Positions 11,373-48,535 of a DNA stretch of 55,958 nt are shown piece after piece. This stretch comes from Candidatus Cacconaster caballi. Its GTDB lineage: Bacteria > Bacteroidota > Bacteroidia > Bacteroidales > UBA932. Location: contig JAGHST010000007.1 in NCBI GenBank assembly GCA_018065695.1, forward strand, positions 1 to 55,958, written 5' to 3'. Every line of letters begins with the position of its first letter. Position 1 is the stretch's first letter. The position numbers were made by a program, and so were the translations under genes. The notes under the pieces are model-generated. The model made no database searches. It had not been told where the DNA came from and worked only from the letters and a program-made list of their open reading frames with translations.

Positions 11373-13771
11373 TGGCCCGGGCAGGAAAAACGAAAAAGAA
11401 AAAAAGTACTCCGGCAGACTTGGAAAAAAGAGCCGAAACATTGCGGATGGTCCGAATCATTTTCGGAATAATCTTCGCAATGCTGGCTTTTTATACACTG
11501 GCTGCCCTTTTTTCATATCTCTTCACTTGGACTTCGGATCAGAGCCTGATTTTCGAGAACCGGCTTTTCTCAAATGAAGTGTCCGCCGAAAACAGCGGAG
11601 GCAAACTTGGCTTCTTCTGGGCGGATCTGCTTGTGGCGGATCTTTTCGGACTGGGAGCGTTCATACTCCCGTTCCTTTTCGGAGCCGTGTCTCTTGCGTG
11701 CTTCCGTGTGAGAAAGGTAAACCTCTTGAGAGTCAGTCTTGTGTGTCTGTTCGGCTCCATAGTGGTTTCTGTTCTGCTTGCCTATCTCTTCAGCCTTTTT
11801 GCAGGCAAGGATATTTTGACTTCGGGCGCGGGAGGCTCGTACGGACATTATGCCAATGCCTGGCTTTGCAGTGTGGTAGGCCCTGTCGGAGCCGGTTTCA
11901 TACTGCTGCTTGCGATGTTTCTTCTCGCTACGATGTGCACTCCGAAGGTGGCGTATTGGTTCGACGACCTGATTTTTGACATATCGCACCGCGAAAAATC
12001 CGCTTCCGACGAAGTTGTATCACCGATAAAGGATGGCGGAATGGCAGCTGAAGAATACCACGATATTCTGGAAATGCTCCCGCAGGAGCCTGTGGGAGAT
12101 GACGAGTCTGAATCAGAGTCCGATGTGCCTGAGTCTGATGTGTCTGAGTCTGATGTGTCTGAACCTGCTGCCGAGGCTGTTGTCGAAGATGTCCAGCTCA
12201 CTATCGAAGATTCTGAAAACGATTTTCTCAAAAACCTTACGGACGACGAGAAGGCCCGTCTCTTTGACCCGCGTCTGGACCTTCCGAACTACCAGTTCCC
12301 ATCGCTTTCGCTGCTTAACGACTATCGTGACAAGTGGTATGAAGTCTCCCGCGACGAACTGGAAATGAACAAGGAGCGAATTGTAAAAGCTCTTGACAGT
12401 TATCGCATTAAAGTCACAGGCATTACCGCCAGGATGGGCCCTACCGTGACTCTGTACAAGATTCATCTTGCCGATGGAGTCAAGATATCACAGGTGCGCA
12501 GCCTGGAAGAGGATATCGCCGTTTCTCTCGGCGCCAAGGGTGTCCGCGTTGTAACTCTGCTCGACTCTGTGGGAATAGAAGTGGCGAACGAAAGACCGAG
12601 TGTCGTAGCTCTCAAGGCAATTCTCAATTCTCCGCAGTTCAAGGAGGCTCAGATGGAACTTCCTATGGCTATGGGTATTACGGTCACCAACGAGCCGTTC
12701 TTCATAGATCTGGCCAAGATGCCGCATCTTCTCGTGGCAGGTGCGACCGGTATGGGTAAGTCGGTGGGACTCAACGCTATGATTGCTTCTTTGCTCTTTA
12801 CCAAGCACCCGTCCGAACTTAAGCTGGTGCTGGTGGATCCAAAGAAAGTCGAACTCTCGCTGTATTCAAAACTTGAGAAGCACTTCCTTGCAATGCTGCC
12901 GGACGGCGATGAGGCCATCATCACCGATACCAAGAAGGTGGTGAACACCCTCAAATCACTCTGCATAGAGATGGATGCCCGCTACGACCTGCTTAAAGCA
13001 GCGGACGTCCGTCAGATCAAGGAATACAACAAGAAGTTCCTCAATCGCAGGCTCAATCCTAAGAACGGACATAAGTTCCTGCCTTACATTGTGGTGATAA
13101 TCGACGAGTTTGCAGACCTTCTGATGACCGCCGGACGGGAAGTCGAAGAACCTATTGCACGTCTCGCGCAGAAAGCCCGTGCAGTCGGCATCCACCTCGT
13201 GATTGCAACCCAGAGACCTACGACCAACATCATCACCGGAACCATCAAGGCGAACTTCAACTCCCGCATAGCGTTCAAGGTCAATTCAAGCGTGGATTCC
13301 AAGACCATTATAGATTCTCCGGGAGCGCAGCGCCTCATCGGCCGCGGAGATATGCTTGTGATTTCTCCGGGCTCAGACCTTACGCGCGTCCAGTGCGCAC
13401 TGATAGATACTCCTGAAATAATAGATCTGGTCCGTTCTATATGGGATCAGAGCGGTTACAGTCATCCGTTCTATCTTCCTGAATATGTGGATGAATCCGA
13501 GGAAGGAGCAGGAGTGGGCGAGATGGACCTCCACAAGAGGGACCAGTTCTTCGAGGATTGCGCCAAACTTGTTGTCCAGTATCAGCAGGGTTCCACCTCT
13601 ATGATTCAGCGGAAGCTCGGCATAGGCTATGCAAGGGCCGGCCGCATTATGGACCAGCTCGAGGCCGCCGGCATTGTAGGGCCTCAGGAAGGCAGCAAGG
13701 CACGGAATGTGTATATAACCGATTTTGACGCTCTGGACAGACTTCTTGAGTCTCTGGATCACGCATCATAA
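11372..13771 (+). CDS. ftsK: FtsK/SpoIIIE family DNA translocase
   Basis: A hexameric DNA pump at the division septum that aligns chromosome ends for dimer resolution. About 799 residues from the ATG that overlaps the DUF4290 stop; a GTG one codon upstream is also possible. Residues 20-200 carry four membrane segments, about 210-290 an acidic linker, then the alpha/beta RecA-like motor. Walker A is GATGMGKS at 457-464, Walker B VVIIDEFADL near 578-587, and the C-terminal gamma winged helix contains RKLGIGYARAGRIMDQLE. The linker includes three tandem copies of ESDV[P/S] at 249-263, encoded by 15-base repeats. Confidence 0.96.
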   Translation: MARAGKTKKKKSTPADLEKRAETLRMVRIIFGIIFAMLAFYTLAALFSYLFTWTSDQSLIFENRLFSNEVSAENSGGKLGFFWADLLVADLFGLGAFILPFLFGAVSLACFRVRKVNLLRVSLVCLFGSIVVSVLLAYLFSLFAGKDILTSGAGGSYGHYANAWLCSVVGPVGAGFILLLAMFLLATMCTPKVAYWFDDLIFDISHREKSASDEVVSPIKDGGMAAEEYHDILEMLPQEPVGDDESESESDVPESDVSESDVSEPAAEAVVEDVQLTIEDSENDFLKNLTDDEKARLFDPRLDLPNYQFPSLSLLNDYRDKWYEVSRDELEMNKERIVKALDSYRIKVTGITARMGPTVTLYKIHLADGVKISQVRSLEEDIAVSLGAKGVRVVTLLDSVGIEVANERPSVVALKAILNSPQFKEAQMELPMAMGITVTNEPFFIDLAKMPHLLVAGATGMGKSVGLNAMIASLLFTKHPSELKLVLVDPKKVELSLYSKLEKHFLAMLPDGDEAIITDTKKVVNTLKSLCIEMDARYDLLKAADVRQIKEYNKKFLNRRLNPKNGHKFLPYIVVIIDEFADLLMTAGREVEEPIARLAQKARAVGIHLVIATQRPTTNIITGTIKANFNSRIAFKVNSSVDSKTIIDSPGAQRLIGRGDMLVISPGSDLTRVQCALIDTPEIIDLVRSIWDQSGYSHPFYLPEYVDESEEGAGVGEMDLHKRDQFFEDCAKLVVQYQQGSTSMIQRKLGIGYARAGRIMDQLEAAGIVGPQEGSKARNVYITDFDALDRLLESLDHAS
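12116..12160 (+). repeat. Three 15-bp tandem repeats inside ftsK
   Basis: Three head-to-tail 15-base units with the core GAGTCTGATGTGTCT. The last two are identical and the first differs at two positions. They encode acidic ESDV[P/S] in the flexible linker between the membrane anchor and the motor, and are likely to vary in number by slippage. Confidence 0.85.
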
Positions 13772-18588: not shown

Positions 18589-19950
18589 ATGTCAGATCAC
18601 ATCAGATTGAAAAAGGGCCTCGACCTCCCGATAGCAGGAGCCGCCCTTTGCAAAGTGACCAAGACTGTGACACCGGACGTAGTTGCCGTCAAGCCTACCG
18701 ATTTCCGCGGCGTGGTCCCACGCCTGCTGGTTCACGAAGGTGACCCGGTAAAGGCCGGCTCTCCTCTCTTCGCCGATAAGACAAACACTGACATCGTTTT
18801 CGTTTCACCGGTAAGCGGTACCGTAGAGGCTGTCGTTCGCGGTGACAAACGCAAACTTCTTGCAGTGACTGTCAAAGCCGACGGAAAGAACGAGTCTGTA
18901 AACTACGATTTTCCTAAGCTCTCCCAGTTGAACAGGGAAAGCGCTGTCAGGGTTCTGCTCTCAAGCGGTCTTTGGCCTTGCATCAAACAGCGCCCTTACG
19001 GCGTGGTAGCCAACCCGAACGTCAAACCGAAAGCCATTTTCATCTCGGCGATGAATACGGCTCCTCTGGCAGCGGACATCGATTTCACTCTTGTAAATGA
19101 ATTCGACGCCGTTCAGGCAGGCGTGGAGCTTCTCGGTATGCTCACAGATGGCGGTGTACACGTATCTCTTGCAGCCGGAAGTTATGCTGGAAGCGAGTTC
19201 CACAAACTTAAAAAAGTGGTGTTCCACACTTTTGACGGCCCGCATCCTGCAGGTAACGTAGGTGTCCAGATCAATCACATCAGCCCTATCAACAAGGGCG
19301 AGACAGTATGGACGGTGGATCTGTTCCTCGTGGCTGCCATCGGCCGTCTTCTGACAAAAGGTGTCTGTGACCTGAGCCGCACCATTGCAGTTGCGGGTCC
19401 CGCAGCCAACAATCCTTCTTATGTCAAGGTTCCTTGCGGAGTCTCGATGCAGGCTCTTTCCGAATACTTCAATACGGAAAAAGGTGAGGTCCGCGTAATC
19501 AGCGGTGACGTCCTCTCCGGTGAGAATGTCGGCAGAGATGGATTTCTCGGCTTCTACAGCAATCTGGTCAGCGTCATTCCGGAGGGTAACTACTTCGAGA
19601 TGTTCGGATGGTGCAAGCCGTTCCGTCTCAAGAAGTTCAGCTTCTCACGCTCATACTGGTCACGTTTCGCATGCGGAAAAAAGAAGTATGCAATGGACAC
19701 CAACACCAATGGAGAAGAACGAGCTTTCGTTGTATCCGATGTCTATGGAAAGGTGTTCCCTATGGACATATACCCGGTATATCTGCTCAAGGCAATCCTC
19801 GCGGGCAACATCGAAAAGATGGAGGAACTCGGAATATACGAGGTCATCGAGGAAGACTTTGCGCTGTGTGAGTATGTGGATCCTTCCAAGATTGAAATTC
19901 AAGAGATTGTCCGTAAGGGCATTGAACTTATGATGAAAGAAATGGCATAA
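18589..19950 (+). CDS. nqrA: Na+-translocating NADH:quinone reductase subunit A
   Basis: Cytoplasmic subunit of the Na+-pumping NADH:ubiquinone/menaquinone oxidoreductase, implicated in quinone binding. 453 residues, the family's normal size. The N-terminal biotinyl-lipoyl-like domain (LDLPIAGAA, then FADKTNTDIVFVSPVSGTVEAV near residue 64) and the Rossmann-like middle region match NqrA. First gene of a six-gene operon in canonical ABCDEF order with gaps of 2-18 bases. The nqrB gene follows after 12 bases, with a rare GGAGG-like purine run in front of it. Confidence 0.97.
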   Translation: MSDHIRLKKGLDLPIAGAALCKVTKTVTPDVVAVKPTDFRGVVPRLLVHEGDPVKAGSPLFADKTNTDIVFVSPVSGTVEAVVRGDKRKLLAVTVKADGKNESVNYDFPKLSQLNRESAVRVLLSSGLWPCIKQRPYGVVANPNVKPKAIFISAMNTAPLAADIDFTLVNEFDAVQAGVELLGMLTDGGVHVSLAAGSYAGSEFHKLKKVVFHTFDGPHPAGNVGVQINHISPINKGETVWTVDLFLVAAIGRLLTKGVCDLSRTIAVAGPAANNPSYVKVPCGVSMQALSEYFNTEKGEVRVISGDVLSGENVGRDGFLGFYSNLVSVIPEGNYFEMFGWCKPFRLKKFSFSRSYWSRFACGKKKYAMDTNTNGEERAFVVSDVYGKVFPMDIYPVYLLKAILAGNIEKMEELGIYEVIEEDFALCEYVDPSKIEIQEIVRKGIELMMKEMA

Positions 19951-19962
19951 GGAGGAACCGAT

Positions 19963-21105
19963 ATGAACGCATTAAGAAATTATGTAAGCAAGATCAAGCC
20001 TACCTTCTCCAAGGGAGGCAGATTCGCATGGCTCCACTCCACTTTCGAGGCATTTGAAAGTTTCCTTTTCGTGCCTGACACCGTTACCGTACGCGGTGTC
20101 CACGTACGCGACAGCGTGGATCTCAAGCGCACCATCACTGTGGCAATGATTGCACTTCTGCCTTCAGTGCTCTTCGGAATGTACAACATCGGTTACCAGC
20201 ACAATCTCGCCATAGGCGGTGATATGGGTTTCTGGCCTATCGTATGGTATGGTTTCCTCAAGATTCTGCCACTCTACCTTGTGACCTACATAGTGGGCCT
20301 CGGCATAGAGTTCGCATCAGCTCAGATAAAAGGCCATCAGGTAAATGAAGGATTCCTCTTCACGGGCCTGATCATACCTCTCATAGTGCCTGTAACGGTT
20401 CCTCTCTGGATGCTCGGCCTTGCCGTGGCATTCGCAGTCATTTTCGGCAAGGAGGTGTTCGGCGGCACCGGTATGAACATCTGGAACCCGGCCCTCATCG
20501 CCCGTGCATTCCTCTTTTTCTCATACCCTAACCAGATGTCCGGAGATTCCATCTGGGTATCCCTCGGCAAAGGCACTGCCCTCGACGGTTTCAGCGGCGC
20601 AACCCCTCTGTCCCAGGCGGGCGGCGGTCTGGCCAATATCCAGTACAGTATTTCCGATATGTTCTTCGGCTTCATACCGGGTTCTGTCGGTGAGACATCG
20701 AAACTCTGCATCCTCATAGGTGCATTCATCCTCATCTACTGCGGAGTTGGCAGCTGGAAGATAATGCTCTCCAGTGTCGCCGGCGGACTTCTTGTAGGAT
20801 GGCTCGCCAATGTGGCAGGTGCAACCGACATTCCTGCGTACTATCATCTCATGATGGGCGGTTTCCTCTTCGGTACCGTGTTCATGGCAACAGATCCTGT
20901 GACCGCAGCACAGACAGAGTGCGGCAAATGGGTTTACGGATTCCTGATAGGCGCAATTGCAGTAGTCATCCGACTCTTCAATCCTGGTTATCCGGAAGGA
21001 ATGATGCTTGCAATCCTTCTTCTCAACACATTCGCTCCTCTCATCGACCACTGCGTAGTCAGCAGAAACGTCAAGAGAAGACTCAACCGCGCAAAGACAG
21101 TCTAG
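19963..21105 (+). CDS. nqrB: Na+-NQR subunit B
   Basis: Membrane subunit with about ten helices that carries a covalent FMN and riboflavin and forms part of the Na+ path. 380 residues. The FMN attachment threonine is Thr214 in SGATPLS. The N-terminal amphipathic region (residues 1-40) and the GxGMNIWNPAL segment near 170 match the family. The stop and the nqrC ATG are two bases apart, so nqrB and nqrC are tightly coupled. Confidence 0.97.
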   Translation: MNALRNYVSKIKPTFSKGGRFAWLHSTFEAFESFLFVPDTVTVRGVHVRDSVDLKRTITVAMIALLPSVLFGMYNIGYQHNLAIGGDMGFWPIVWYGFLKILPLYLVTYIVGLGIEFASAQIKGHQVNEGFLFTGLIIPLIVPVTVPLWMLGLAVAFAVIFGKEVFGGTGMNIWNPALIARAFLFFSYPNQMSGDSIWVSLGKGTALDGFSGATPLSQAGGGLANIQYSISDMFFGFIPGSVGETSKLCILIGAFILIYCGVGSWKIMLSSVAGGLLVGWLANVAGATDIPAYYHLMMGGFLFGTVFMATDPVTAAQTECGKWVYGFLIGAIAVVIRLFNPGYPEGMMLAILLLNTFAPLIDHCVVSRNVKRRLNRAKTV

Positions 21106-21107
21106 TT

Positions 21108-22043
21108 ATGAATACAAACAGCAATGCATATACAATCATCTACTCCACGATAGTCGTGGTGGTAGTTGCCGCTGCCCTTGCCTTCGTGGCTATGACTCTC
21201 AAGCCGAAGCAGGAGGCCAATATCAAGGCTGAAACCATCAGCCAGATGCTTTCAGCAGCGCAGTTCGCTTCCAAAGAAGACCTTACGGCTCTGGGAAACG
21301 AAAACATCCTCAAAATGTACTCCGAGAAAATTGTGAACGCATTTACGATTGATGCTCAGGGCAATAAAGTCAGAGACCTCGAGACTCAGGGCAGCAACAT
21401 AGAACTTGCCGATAATCTCAAGGCTCAGAACTACAATATCAAAGACGGTTCTTCAGTGGAACTTCCGGTCTATGTATTCGAAAAGGACGGACGGAATGTC
21501 AATGTCGTTCCTGTATATGGAGCCGGCCTTTGGGGTCCCGTATGGGGCTACATCGCCTTCAATGCGGATTGCAGCGAGATAGTGGGCGCTTATTTCGACC
21601 ACGACAGCGAAACTCCGGGCCTTGGCGCAAAAATCAAGGATGAAGCGTGGTTCCGCGAACAGTTTGCCGGCAAGCGCATAAATTTCGACAATCCTGACAA
21701 TCCTTTCAATATCGTCAAGGGAGGCGTTCCTCAAGGCGAAGAAGGTGCTTCGATGGTTGATGCCATTTCAGGCGCAACAATGACCTGCAACGGTCTGGAT
21801 GCCGCCATAGACATCTGGATGAAAGCATACATCCCGTTCCTTTCAGCCAAGGCTGCGGCCGCTCGCGAAACTGAATGCAACTGTGGTGGCGAAGGCTGCG
21901 AAGAACACAGTTGCGGCGACACCTGCACCGGAAATTGCACAGGCGCCGAAGAACATAGTTGCACCGGTTCCTGCACAGGAACTTGCACCGGCACCTGCGG
22001 AAGCTCCTGCGGCGTCACTAATACTAAAGCAGAGGAGGAATAG
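21108..22043 (+). CDS. nqrC: Na+-NQR subunit C with cysteine-rich C-terminal tail
   Basis: Subunit with one N-terminal membrane helix (9-28) and a periplasmic FMN domain. Covalent flavin attachment is expected at Thr224 in SGATMT, which would need an ApbE transferase encoded elsewhere. The catalytic domain is normal through about residue 250. The last 55 residues are unlike NqrC family members I know: 11 cysteines at 257, 259, 264, 269, 273, 277, 285, 289, 293, 297 and 301, with strict four-residue spacing in two blocks, each opened by EEHSC. The DNA shows matching 12-base periodicity. The start is the ATG two bases after nqrB; the frame is open far upstream but that part overlaps nqrB. Confidence 0.95.
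   Translation: MNTNSNAYTIIYSTIVVVVVAAALAFVAMTLKPKQEANIKAETISQMLSAAQFASKEDLTALGNENILKMYSEKIVNAFTIDAQGNKVRDLETQGSNIELADNLKAQNYNIKDGSSVELPVYVFEKDGRNVNVVPVYGAGLWGPVWGYIAFNADCSEIVGAYFDHDSETPGLGAKIKDEAWFREQFAGKRINFDNPDNPFNIVKGGVPQGEEGASMVDAISGATMTCNGLDAAIDIWMKAYIPFLSAKAAAARETECNCGGEGCEEHSCGDTCTGNCTGAEEHSCTGSCTGTCTGTCGSSCGVTNTKAEEE
21876..22013 (+). repeat. Cysteine-codon repeat region in nqrC
   Basis: Degenerate 12-base units (TGC-ACC-GGx-xxC type) encode the CTGx repeats of the NqrC tail. The duplicated block EEHSC occurs at residues 265-269 and 281-285. Confidence 0.8.
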
Positions 22044-22046
22044 ACT

Positions 22047-22652
22047 ATGAATGAGAATTTGAAAAACACCATTCTTAACCCTATATTCAAGGGCAATCCT
22101 ATCTCCGTACTGGTACTCGGCATCTGCTCTTCACTTGCCGTTACGGTACAGCTGAAAGGCGCCTGCGTGATGGCACTTTCCGTGATTGCCGTGACCGGCC
22201 TTTCGAGCTTCGTGGTTTCCCTGCTGAGAAACACTATCCCGAATCGCGTGCGCATCATCGTGCAGCTTGTGGTGGTGGCCCTTATGGTTATCCTTGTGGA
22301 CCAGTTCCTCAAGGCTTATGCATATTCGATTGACAAACAGCTCTCCGTATATATCGGACTCATTATCACCAACTGCATCGTAATGGGACGCATAGAGGCC
22401 TTCGCCCTTGGCAACAAGCCGGGAGTGTCTCTCCTTGACGGTCTTGCAAACGGTGCCGGTTACGGTATGATTCTGGTGATTGTGGCCTTTTTCCGTGAAC
22501 TTCTCGGAAGCGGCACTCTCTTCGGATTCAGAGTGCTTCCGGAAAGCTATATTCCGAACAACCTCGTGATTCTTCCTCCGATGGCGCTGATTCTTCTGGG
22601 CTGCATTGTCTGGATACAGCGTTCAATCCAGAAAGATCTTCAGGAAAAATAA
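22047..22652 (+). CDS. nqrD: Na+-NQR subunit D
   Basis: Integral membrane subunit, 201 residues with six helices, inverted-symmetric to NqrE. Cys27 in GICSSLAV and Cys110 in TNCIVMGRIEAFA are the family's conserved residues that, with the NqrE pair, hold the intramembrane iron centre. Start is 3 bases after the nqrC stop. Confidence 0.97.
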   Translation: MNENLKNTILNPIFKGNPISVLVLGICSSLAVTVQLKGACVMALSVIAVTGLSSFVVSLLRNTIPNRVRIIVQLVVVALMVILVDQFLKAYAYSIDKQLSVYIGLIITNCIVMGRIEAFALGNKPGVSLLDGLANGAGYGMILVIVAFFRELLGSGTLFGFRVLPESYIPNNLVILPPMALILLGCIVWIQRSIQKDLQEK

Positions 22653-22670
22653 CAATAACTCGAACTGATT

Positions 22671-23285
22671 ATGGATTACATTAGCTTATTCGTAAAGTCA
22701 ATTTTTGTTGACAATATGATTTTTGCATACTTCCTCGGTATGTGCTCATATCTGGCGGTATCCAAAAATGTGAAGACGGCAAACGGTTTGGGTATTGCTG
22801 TTATCGGAGTGCTTCTCATCACACTCCCCGTCAACTATCTTCTCAACAAGTTCGTGCTTCAGCCGGGCGCTCTCGCTTGGCTGGGTGAAGGCTTCGAAAA
22901 CGTGGACCTCAGCTTCCTGAGCTTCATCATTTTCATAGCTGTCATCGCCGCAATCGTCCAGATTGTGGAGATGGTTGTCGAGAAGTTCCTTCCTGCGCTC
23001 TACTCATCTCTCGGAATCTTCCTTCCCCTCATTGCGGTGAACTGCGCCATCCTCGGCGGTTCCCTCTTTATGCAGCAGAAGGATTTTGCTTCCTGCGGTG
23101 AGGCTGCCGTATATGCACTCGGTTCCGGCATCGGCTGGTACCTCGCTATCGTGGCTCTCGCGGCAATACGCGAAAAGATGTCTTACTCCCACGTTCCTGC
23201 CGGCTTGAAAGGCCTCGGCATTACCTTTATCGTGGTGGGTATGATGGGTATCGCATTTATGGCATTTATGGGTATCAAACTTTAG
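22671..23285 (+). CDS. nqrE: Na+-NQR subunit E
   Basis: Integral membrane subunit, 204 residues with six helices. Cys25 in GMCSYLAVS and Cys125 in [11 protein letters not shown] complete the four-cysteine intramembrane iron site with NqrD. The motifs and size are typical; the RnfA paralogue is excluded by the operon context. Confidence 0.97.
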
Positions 23286-23300
23286 AAAGGAGGCTGTAAT

Positions 23301-24572
23301 ATGAATATGACAATCATTTCTGCAGTTGCAGTCATCGTGGCAGTCACCATTATTCTCGTGGCGCTGCTCCTTTTCATAAAGACCAAGCTCACACCTTCCG
23401 GGAATGTCACCATCGACATCAACGGCGGCAAGAAAGTGGTTGAAGCTCCAATGGGCGGTTCGCTCCTCTCCACACTCGCCGAGCAGAAGATTTTCCTTCC
23501 GTCGGCTTGCGGTGGAAAAGGCAACTGCGGTCAGTGCAAGTGCCAGGTTCTCGAGGGCGGTGGCACAATCCTCCCTACCGAGGTGGGATTTTTCAGCCGC
23601 AAGCAGATTCTTGACAACTGGCGTCTCGGCTGTCAGGTCAAGGTGAAGGACAACCTGAAGATTCAGGTTCCTGATTCTGTCCTGAGCGTGAAGAAGCTTG
23701 AGTGCGAGGTTATCAGCAACCACAATGTGGCTACCTTCATCAAGGAGTTCACCGTGAAGTTGCCTGAAGGCGAACATATAGAATTCAAGAGCGGTGAGTA
23801 TATCCAGATAGACATTCCTGCCTGCGACATCAACTTCGCCGATATGGACATCGACCCTATCTACAGGGCGGACTGGGAGCGTTACAACTTCTTCGATTTG
23901 AAGATGCACAACCCTGTGGCCACAATCCGTGCCTATTCGATGGCCTCTTATCCCGCAGAGGACAACATCGTCAAACTGAATGTCCGAATCGCCACACCTC
24001 CGTTTGACCGCAGCCAGCCTAAGGGTGTGTTCAAGTGTCTGCCTGTCAATCCGGGTGTTGCTTCATCGTATGTCTTCAGCCGCAAACCGGGTGATAAAGT
24101 CACCATCAGCGGCCCTTACGGAGACTTCCTTCTTCCGAAGGACGATCCGAAGGATGTCGAGTACGTATTTGTCGGTGGCGGAGCCGGTATGGCACCTCTC
24201 CGCAGCCACATAATGCATCTGTTCAAGACTCTCAAGACAGACCGCAAGGTGAAGTTCTTCTATGGCGCACGTGCGCTTGTGGAGGCTTTCTATCTCGAGG
24301 ACTTTGCACAGATCGAGCGTGAGTTCCCTAATTTCGAGTTCCATCTGGCTCTCGACCGTCCGGACCCTGCAGCTGATGCAGCCGGTGTAAAATACACCGC
24401 AGGCTTCGTTCACAACGTGATGAACGATTTGTATCTCAAGAATCACGAGGCTCCGGAAGATATCAAGTACTTTATGTGCGGACCTCCTATGATGGTTTCA
24501 TCCGTGGTAAATCTGCTTGACAGTCTGGGAGTTCAGCCTGAGAATATACTCTACGACAATTTCGGTGCATAG
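23301..24572 (+). CDS. nqrF: Na+-NQR subunit F (NADH dehydrogenase subunit)
   Basis: Entry point of electrons from NADH. 423 residues: membrane anchor (5-27), a 2Fe-2S ferredoxin domain with ligands Cys70, Cys76, Cys79 and Cys111, an FAD domain with RAYSMASYP near 215, and the NADH domain with GGGAGMAPLRSH and the closing MCGPPMM. The ligand spacing C-x5-C-x2-C-x31-C is the NqrF pattern. It ends the operon 24 bases before a strong terminator. Confidence 0.97.
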   Translation: MNMTIISAVAVIVAVTIILVALLLFIKTKLTPSGNVTIDINGGKKVVEAPMGGSLLSTLAEQKIFLPSACGGKGNCGQCKCQVLEGGGTILPTEVGFFSRKQILDNWRLGCQVKVKDNLKIQVPDSVLSVKKLECEVISNHNVATFIKEFTVKLPEGEHIEFKSGEYIQIDIPACDINFADMDIDPIYRADWERYNFFDLKMHNPVATIRAYSMASYPAEDNIVKLNVRIATPPFDRSQPKGVFKCLPVNPGVASSYVFSRKPGDKVTISGPYGDFLLPKDDPKDVEYVFVGGGAGMAPLRSHIMHLFKTLKTDRKVKFFYGARALVEAFYLEDFAQIEREFPNFEFHLALDRPDPAADAAGVKYTAGFVHNVMNDLYLKNHEAPEDIKYFMCGPPMMVSSVVNLLDSLGVQPENILYDNFGA

Positions 24573-47332: not shown

Positions 47333-47754
47333 TTCGTTTTCTGGAATTTGCCGACAATCTGGATTTCCACGTGGTCCAGATCGAAGTTTGCTATTTTTTT
47401 GTTTTTGAGATAACCGGACACAAGTTTCATCAATTCCGTATCGTTGAAGTCCGTTATGGTGTGTGAGGCCTCGTCGTAGATGTGGCAATGGTCCGAGACA
47501 GTGATGTCGTAGTACATTTTATTGTTGGCGCTCATCCGTTTGCGGAGCAGTCCCGCCTGTTTGAGGTCCCCAAGCACATTATATATGGTAGCTACCGAGA
47601 TTCCGCTTTTGCCGCTGCTCTCCAGCGTCTGCTTTATGTCGTCGGCGGAGGCGTGACCGAGCAGGCGCATCGCGTCAAGGACGGCGATGCGCTGCGCAGT
47701 CGCCTTGAGGCCGCTGATATTGAGCAGTTCGGATGTATCCCCGGCTTCTTTCAC
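47329..47754 (-). CDS. Fur-family transcriptional regulator
   Basis: A 141-residue regulator with the Fur winged-helix fold: LKATAQRIAVLDAMR (16-30), ISVATIYNVLGDLKQAGLL recognition helix (52-70) and the metal-sensing strand SDHCHIYDEASH (88-98). His89, His91 and His98 could bind metal; the C-x2-C pairs that hold structural zinc in most Fur proteins are absent. The proposed start is a GTG one base after the upstream GDPD stop, since no ATG fits and longer frames overlap that gene. Probably represses its own operon in response to a metal or peroxide. Confidence 0.82.
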   Translation of the reverse strand: MKEAGDTSELLNISGLKATAQRIAVLDAMRLLGHASADDIKQTLESSGKSGISVATIYNVLGDLKQAGLLRKRMSANNKMYYDITVSDHCHIYDEASHTITDFNDTELMKLVSGYLKNKKIANFDLDHVEIQIVGKFQKTK

Positions 47755-47755
47755 T

Positions 47756-48535
47756 TTATCGGGCCTGTTTGCGCTCTGCAATAAGTTCCGTTGCGAGAAC
47801 AGGTGCGTTGGTGGTGACGAAATCGACTCCGAGGTCAAGCATCGCGTTGATATTCTCCTCTTTGGAAACTGTCCACGCATTGCATATCATCCCGAGGCTG
47901 TGAGCTTCCTCGACCCATTCCGGATGAGCTTCGAAGACGCTGAAATGGTAGTCTATGCCCATTATGCCCATCTCCTTGAGTTCAGCGGGAGCGACATCGC
48001 CGGTAAGATATTCCACCATAGTGCCCGGCAACTGCTCAGCGAATTTCCGGCATGCGGTAAGACTGAAAGAGATGATGTCGGTGCGTTCCACAAGGTCGTA
48101 TTTTTTCAGAAGAGCGACAATTTGCGTGGTGGCGCGATCTTCATATCCGGCATCACCTTTGCTCTTGAGCTCAAGCACCATCTGAAGTTCGGGATATTTT
48201 ACTCCCAGTTCGAGATACTGCTCCAGCGTCGGAATGACTTCCCCGTTTGCGAGGGTGGAGTCCTTGATGGCATCGTAAGGGTTTTCGTCTATCATTATGC
48301 CGTGGAACGTGAAGTCGTGGTTTATCACGAGAACGCCGTCCGAAGTCATATTGACGTCGAATTCCGAGCCGTAAACGCCGAGTTCACCGGCAAGACGGAG
48401 GGCTTCAAGGGAGTTTTGGGCAGAACCTTCGGCATCCCAGTGACCGCGGTGTGCAACGACCTGAGGCCCTGTCGGTTCAGTCGTGCAGGATATTGCTGCG
48501 ATGCAGCAAACGATTGCAAAGATTGATTTTTTCAT
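47756..48535 (-). CDS. Glycerophosphodiester phosphodiesterase lipoprotein
   Basis: An exported lipoprotein of 259 residues with lipobox AISC (Cys17). The GDPD TIM-barrel motif set is present: VVAHRGHWDAEGSAQNSLEA near residue 27, EFDVNMTSDGVLVINHD with the metal-binding E and D, LELK near 121 and AWTVSKEENI near 220. It should hydrolyse glycerophosphodiesters to glycerol-3-phosphate outside the cytoplasm. First gene of a GDPD-Fur-Gate unit; the box TAATTTTG ends six bases before its ATG. Confidence 0.92.
   Translation of the reverse strand: MKKSIFAIVCCIAAISCTTEPTGPQVVAHRGHWDAEGSAQNSLEALRLAGELGVYGSEFDVNMTSDGVLVINHDFTFHGIMIDENPYDAIKDSTLANGEVIPTLEQYLELGVKYPELQMVLELKSKGDAGYEDRATTQIVALLKKYDLVERTDIISFSLTACRKFAEQLPGTMVEYLTGDVAPAELKEMGIMGIDYHFSVFEAHPEWVEEAHSLGMICNAWTVSKEENINAMLDLGVDFVTTNAPVLATELIAERKQAR

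Follow-up and report, generated by a model that had tools for sequence, protein, structure and literature searches.

A recurrent cysteine-rich C-terminal tail on the NqrC subunit of Na+-NQR in Bacteroidales, with a possible metal-binding role

Introduction

Metallothioneins have a very high Cys content, and NqrM (PF04400), the Na+-NQR maturation protein, has four conserved Cys. SlyD offers a further comparison: in E. coli and H. pylori it has an unstructured tail, rich in His, Cys, Asp and Glu, that differs from one SlyD to another and can take up as many as 7 Ni (PMC7055735). As for Na+-NQR, PMC12174285 describes NqrC as the moving electron switch of the enzyme and gives the FMN-attachment role to a Thr of the V. 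cholerae protein; the same paper and PMC10643135 place the NqrC domain in the periplasm, swinging between NqrD/E and NqrB, and let it reach the NqrD/E cluster from the periplasmic side.

Here we describe the NqrC encoded in the window, which is the whole stretch of 55,958 nucleotides analysed from Candidatus Cacconaster caballi (GCA_018065695.1, contig JAGHST010000007.1). The protein is the same as NqrC of TIGR01938 in its core, fold, GATMT flavin site and place in the operon, but differs by about 60 extra Cys-rich residues. These are, like the SlyD tail, C-terminal, predicted to be unstructured, rich in Cys and Asp/Glu, provided with His in most relatives, and variable between species. SlyD, however, carries its tail on a prolyl isomerase, whereas this one sits, as a putative metal binder, on a respiratory subunit; a Pfam search of the whole NqrC found no FKBP domain, the prolyl isomerase of SlyD. 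NqrM shares with the tail its tie to NQR, and iron supply would be a shared task, but NqrM is a separate small membrane protein, and its profile PF04400 had no match in the window NqrC or its tail. Metallothioneins are Cys-rich too, but the tail is not a separate protein, and searched alone against Pfam (HMMER filters on) it had no matches up to E 10, metallothionein and ferredoxin-like families included. A literature search, with most subscription papers outside its reach, found no publication on a Cys-rich NqrC tail. Judging by composition, we read it as an appendage of the periplasmic FMN subunit that is disordered and binds metal much as the SlyD tail does, a reading that we think probable, if only just.

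Results

A complete nqr operon with an extended nqrC

The source assembly is 81% complete (1.38 Mb in 53 contigs). The window contains a complete nqrABCDEF operon on the forward strand (18589-24572): nqrA (18589-19950; TIGR01936, 470 bits, cut-off 321), nqrB (19963-21105; TIGR01937, 457 bits, cut-off 350), nqrC (21108-22043, complete, 311 aa; TIGR01938, 184.5 bits, cut-off 144), nqrD (22047-22652; TIGR01939, 280 bits, cut-off 245), nqrE (22671-23285; TIGR01940, 311 bits, cut-off 248) and nqrF (23301-24572; TIGR01941, 563 bits, cut-off 295), with nqrC between nqrB and nqrD. Matched by eye to published ligands, Cys27 and Cys110 of NqrD and Cys25 and Cys125 of NqrE are by position likely cluster ligands, and Cys70, 76, 79 and 111 of NqrF correspond to positions in V. 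cholerae NqrF, whose Cys numbering and ligand positions were taken from PMC10739449. FMN_bind was the sole domain found when the whole NqrC was searched against Pfam. The Thr224 codon (21777-21779, forward strand), within SGATMT, is the equivalent of V. cholerae T225; T224 and T226 are invariant in a 45-row alignment (A1), and T224 would be the FMN-attachment threonine.

NqrC continues about 60 residues beyond its core, with 11 Cys at positions 257, 259, 264, 269, 273, 277, 285, 289, 293, 297 and 301 (21876-22010); the Cys-rich tail proper spans residues 257-302 (21876-22013, forward strand). An earlier note on this DNA had described an 11-Cys tail, placed at the right coordinates, on an otherwise normal NqrC, and this description was confirmed, as were its regular C-x3-C spacing (six of the ten intervals) and its EEHSC blocks (two). 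The window tail is unlike most relatives' tails in having just 2 His and in lacking CC pairs. Tandem Repeats Finder placed in it a 48-base direct duplication (EEHSCGDTCTGNCTG / EEHSCTGSCTGTCTG; 21899-21992, forward strand; 2.0 copies, 80% matches). The 12-base repeats mentioned in the earlier note are present as 12-base steps inside this 48-base unit, but the program listed no separate 12-base array there; expansion by repeat duplication, also proposed in that note, fits the 48-base duplication and the length changes among near relatives. Elsewhere in the window, at 12116-12162, there is a 15-base tandem repeat of 3.1 copies (unit GAGTCTGATGTGTCT).

Such a Cys density is not expected by chance: if Cys is as frequent as in 42 crudely called window genes (1.78%), at least 11 Cys in 46 residues has P ~4e-10, and the densest 46-residue stretch among those genes has at most 8 Cys. 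At least four Cys in the last 40 residues occurred in 2 of 528 crude genes, both in the window, and at least four tail Cys in 37 of 189 distinct NqrC, a contrast to be taken as a guide only, since the rows share ancestry and the tail is defined differently in the two counts. The 528 genes come from 80 named loci and the window (530 minus two NqrC, L057 and L062). Five Cys also fall within the final 40 residues of a crude ORF of the window at 47687-48526 (279 aa).

Searched against its own incomplete genome, the window tail matched only itself. The His-rich tail of a relative, used as query in nine genomes, found nqrC tails in three; in a fourth it hit a single place, at a score no better than chance (E 0.18). 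This search was insensitive, missing known nqrC tails in six of the nine. Cys-dense frames other than NqrC (at least 7 Cys per 40 residues, in stop-to-stop frames of at least 80 residues from the window and L001-L209) had by eye an antisense or wrong-frame look. Given these searches, other genes may still carry such tails. We also rejected ApbE, the FMN transferase, as a tailed partner. It is present in 34 of 41 genomes, and among 19 regions retrieved, 17 had ApbE-like frames whose final 40 residues hold 0-2 Cys, the longest frame in the other two (L220 and L229) being another gene; where an ApbE frame is longer, the surplus is read-through ahead of the start codon.

The last Glu codons of nqrC contain AGGAGG (22033-22038, forward strand), a Shine-Dalgarno-like sequence 8 bases before the nqrD ATG (22047), which may serve nqrD as a ribosome-binding-like site. 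Counted by eye, 23 of the 39 tailed rows have AGGAGG or GAGGAGG inside the end of nqrC, and eight more (L019, L020, L045, L047, L048, L115, L116 and L117) have GGAGG at or just past the stop. The -EEE and -QEG ends of NqrC may therefore be set by the embedded site, and the last residues need not mean protein function.

A predicted disordered arm on the periplasmic side

The AlphaFold model of NqrC, built with 45 sequences (mean pLDDT 82.1), matched V. cholerae NqrC (8a1t_C) at a Foldseek E of 2.6e-14 and 3lwx with a TMt of 0.87. In the model a single helix begins at T224 and stops at residue 256, and the tail departs from its far end, so that the tail root would lie about 48 angstroms from the flavin Thr along the helix (32 residues of 1.5 angstroms). 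From residue 267 on, pLDDT is below 50 except at 271 (267-270 and 272-311), and we predict that the tail is disordered; matches to eight solved NqrC/RnfG sequences stop at query residues 237-252. The placement beside the FMN on the periplasmic side that was first suggested for the tail holds in part: by homology it should be periplasmic, but the modelled helix end from which it leaves is far from the FMN. A flexible arm of 45 residues could nevertheless fold back toward the flavin.

Three residues past Thr224, right after GATMT, the window protein has a Cys (Cys227; 21786-21788) where most sampled NqrC have Ser. Of the 39 tailed rows 20 have Cys at this position, as do 3 of the 150 without a tail; in independent pairs the link between Cys227 and the tail was not significant.

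Tails of similar composition appear repeatedly at one spot

The tail is not unique to a single assembly, as the earlier note had considered it might be. All 40 genomes returned for the genus were searched, and 30 had an NqrC core (E 1e-30 or better), 28 of them with a tail of at least four Cys and 17 of these 28 also with at least four His. The other ten genomes gave four weak or partial matches (G013, G017, G022 and G031) and six none. By core identity to the window protein, 18 further NqrC at 67-73% are all tailed, as are nine at 43-45%, and two at 58% (G002 and G030) are tailless. The 43-45% group (L112-L117, L119, L121 and L122) stands apart from L001-L020, with Cys tails in both, and its presence within the genus suggests operon transfer or replacement.

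Cys-rich C-termini were also sought in a wider set of NqrC homologues. From 209 loci we obtained 189 distinct complete NqrC, 14 being duplicates and six dropped for a contig end or an absent motif. Their tail Cys counts are bimodal, with none in 145, one in 5 and at least three in 39. Within the family of the window, 33 of 78 NqrC are tailed; among named records of uncertain family code 6 of 66 are, and among 45 NqrC from other families of the order there were none. The named tailed records include assemblies titled omasum, reticulum, rumen and horse faeces. The 39 tails have a common composition (E 16.7, C 16.6, G 14.6, H 10.4 and D 9.1%) but not a common Cys spacing: Cys number ranges from 3 to 15 and spacing is variable.

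A tree of the core alone, with 189 rows, requires 10 changes of the tail; well-supported branches force 9 of these, and Cys thresholds from 2 to 5 give 9-10. A careful core tree of 48 rows, hand-chosen from the 189, also needs 10, and a single clade of all its 24 tailed rows was rejected (p-AU 0.0001). The tail is thus recurrent, with about 10 changes at one spot in NqrC, gains and losses being indistinguishable on these trees. Tailed and tailless sisters include L057/L068, L047+L048/L051, L023/L031 and L030+L120/L127. The ends of L057 and L068 still match by eye (ETKTEEE and EPKTEED), therefore the Cys block entered or left in frame.

Selection acts on the tail in the Cys frame

We compared 13 hand-picked pairs of near relatives, with no row reused and inner branches possibly shared, in nucleotide-level alignments (1303 bases in register-keeping blocks, out-of-register blocks skipped). 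Tail mismatches by codon position were 54, 54 and, at the third, 109. For the tails, the Cys frame gave a pN/pS of 0.35 and the two alternative frames gave 1.25 and 1.18, values to be read knowing that alignment itself favours similarity. These figures speak against the frameshift near residue 250 that had been raised as a possible cause of the tail. BLOSUM alignment inflates Cys and His conservation through its matrix, so nucleotide-scored alignments were used instead, giving pN/pS of about 0.20 for Cys, 0.19 for His, 0.46 for Asp/Glu, 0.69 for Gly and 0.35 for the rest. In the window, the two repeat copies differ at 9 of 46 bases compared, 4 of them third codon positions, and this small sample gives pN/pS values of 0.34 for the Cys frame and of 1.24 and 0.54 for the other two. 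Selection acts on the tail in the Cys frame.

These data bear on whether the tail is a weakly constrained low-complexity extension, a harmless hydrophilic product of slippage in which Cys is tolerated and not used. Such an extension would fit the internal 48-base duplication, the quick length change between near relatives (L116 and L117 have 96% identical cores and 18 unaligned tail residues) and a pN/pS that, in a codon-scored alignment, is roughly doubled in the tail (0.33) relative to the core (0.17). We nevertheless judge it rather unlikely: the Cys frame is the only one whose pN/pS lies well under 1, tails of the same composition arose repeatedly, and L011 and L014 share 41 identical tail residues encoded with 6 silent changes, while their cores are 86% identical.

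Gene content and the state of the tail thiols

Among the 40 genus genomes, many of them incomplete, DsbB was found in none (6 of 14 controls positive), VKOR over the cut-off in two and below it in two more (3 of 14 controls), and DsbD, which is reducing, in 34 (10 of 14 controls). Most of the genus thus seems to have a system that reduces thiols but neither DsbB nor VKOR, the two disulfide makers; as far as gene content tells, the periplasm would be a reducing one and the tail thiols are probably free and reduced.

The tail could alternatively be a thiol redox device, accepting electrons from the FMN of NqrC or shielding it from oxidants as a dithiol/disulfide relay or buffer. Many Cys on a flexible arm that should be long enough to reach the flavin, Cys227 close behind Thr224 and the frequency of DsbD would all suit this role, which we still hold to be fairly improbable: it leaves the His of many tails without a role, Cys pairing is not constant, the helix sets the tail root far from the FMN, and the pairwise comparison did not bear out the association of Cys227 with the tail.

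Discussion

A metal chelator is favoured because the composition is common to the 39 tails, Glu, Cys, Gly, His and Asp making up about two thirds of them, and the spacing is not. Disorder predicted by the model, well-kept Cys and His and few disulfide-making genes agree with it. The earlier note had offered metal or iron-sulfur binding; metal is the best reading, but a defined iron-sulfur cluster in the tail is unlikely, with 3-15 Cys, varied spacing and no family match. On the metal-binding reading, an intrinsically disordered tail with reduced thiols, often His-rich, on the periplasmic side of Na+-NQR would use its many soft ligands, in no fixed geometry, to chelate several transition-metal ions, and chelation would buffer, store or intercept metal beside the periplasmic redox switch of the pump. 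From its position, the benefit may be local protection of the pump or metal supply to it. Counting against this are the 145 of 189 sampled NqrC without tail Cys, the tailless G002 and G030 within the genus, the fast change of tail length and spacing, and the 2 His of the window tail.

An iron donor or scaffold that stands in for NqrM and helps to assemble the NqrD/NqrE [2Fe-2S] centre seems very unlikely. Access of NqrC to that cluster from the periplasm, as described in PMC12174285 and PMC10643135, is in its favour, and PF04400 matched none of 148 relatives; however, none of 14 controls was positive either, which makes the absence of NqrM doubtful, untailed relatives equally lack a match, and the tail itself is not matched by the profile. 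Scarcely credible is a frameshift or assembly artefact hiding a true Ala/Pro-rich tail in the +1 frame, which in the window is open and ends, by eye, at a TGA overlapping the nqrD start: TGC-rich DNA is automatically Ala-rich in +1, in 38 further distinct NqrC the Cys tail is in frame with the core, and relatives change at third positions of the Cys frame, with a +1 pN/pS of 1.25, evidence that for the window itself is limited to the 9 mismatches between repeat copies.

The tail might also take part in the work of the pump itself, as a tethered metal or thiol arm, evolved repeatedly, that loads or guards the NqrD/E [2Fe-2S] cluster from the periplasm or hands electrons of the NqrC FMN on to metals or thiols in the periplasm. 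We regard this as decidedly improbable; if true, the NQR of these gut bacteria would be a metal-handling or extracytoplasmic electron-export enzyme. As for the metal-binding reading that we prefer, a metal-binding tail gained or lost about 10 times at one spot would suggest that, in gut Bacteroidales, the pump is tied in an unrecognised way to the handling of metals or thiols.
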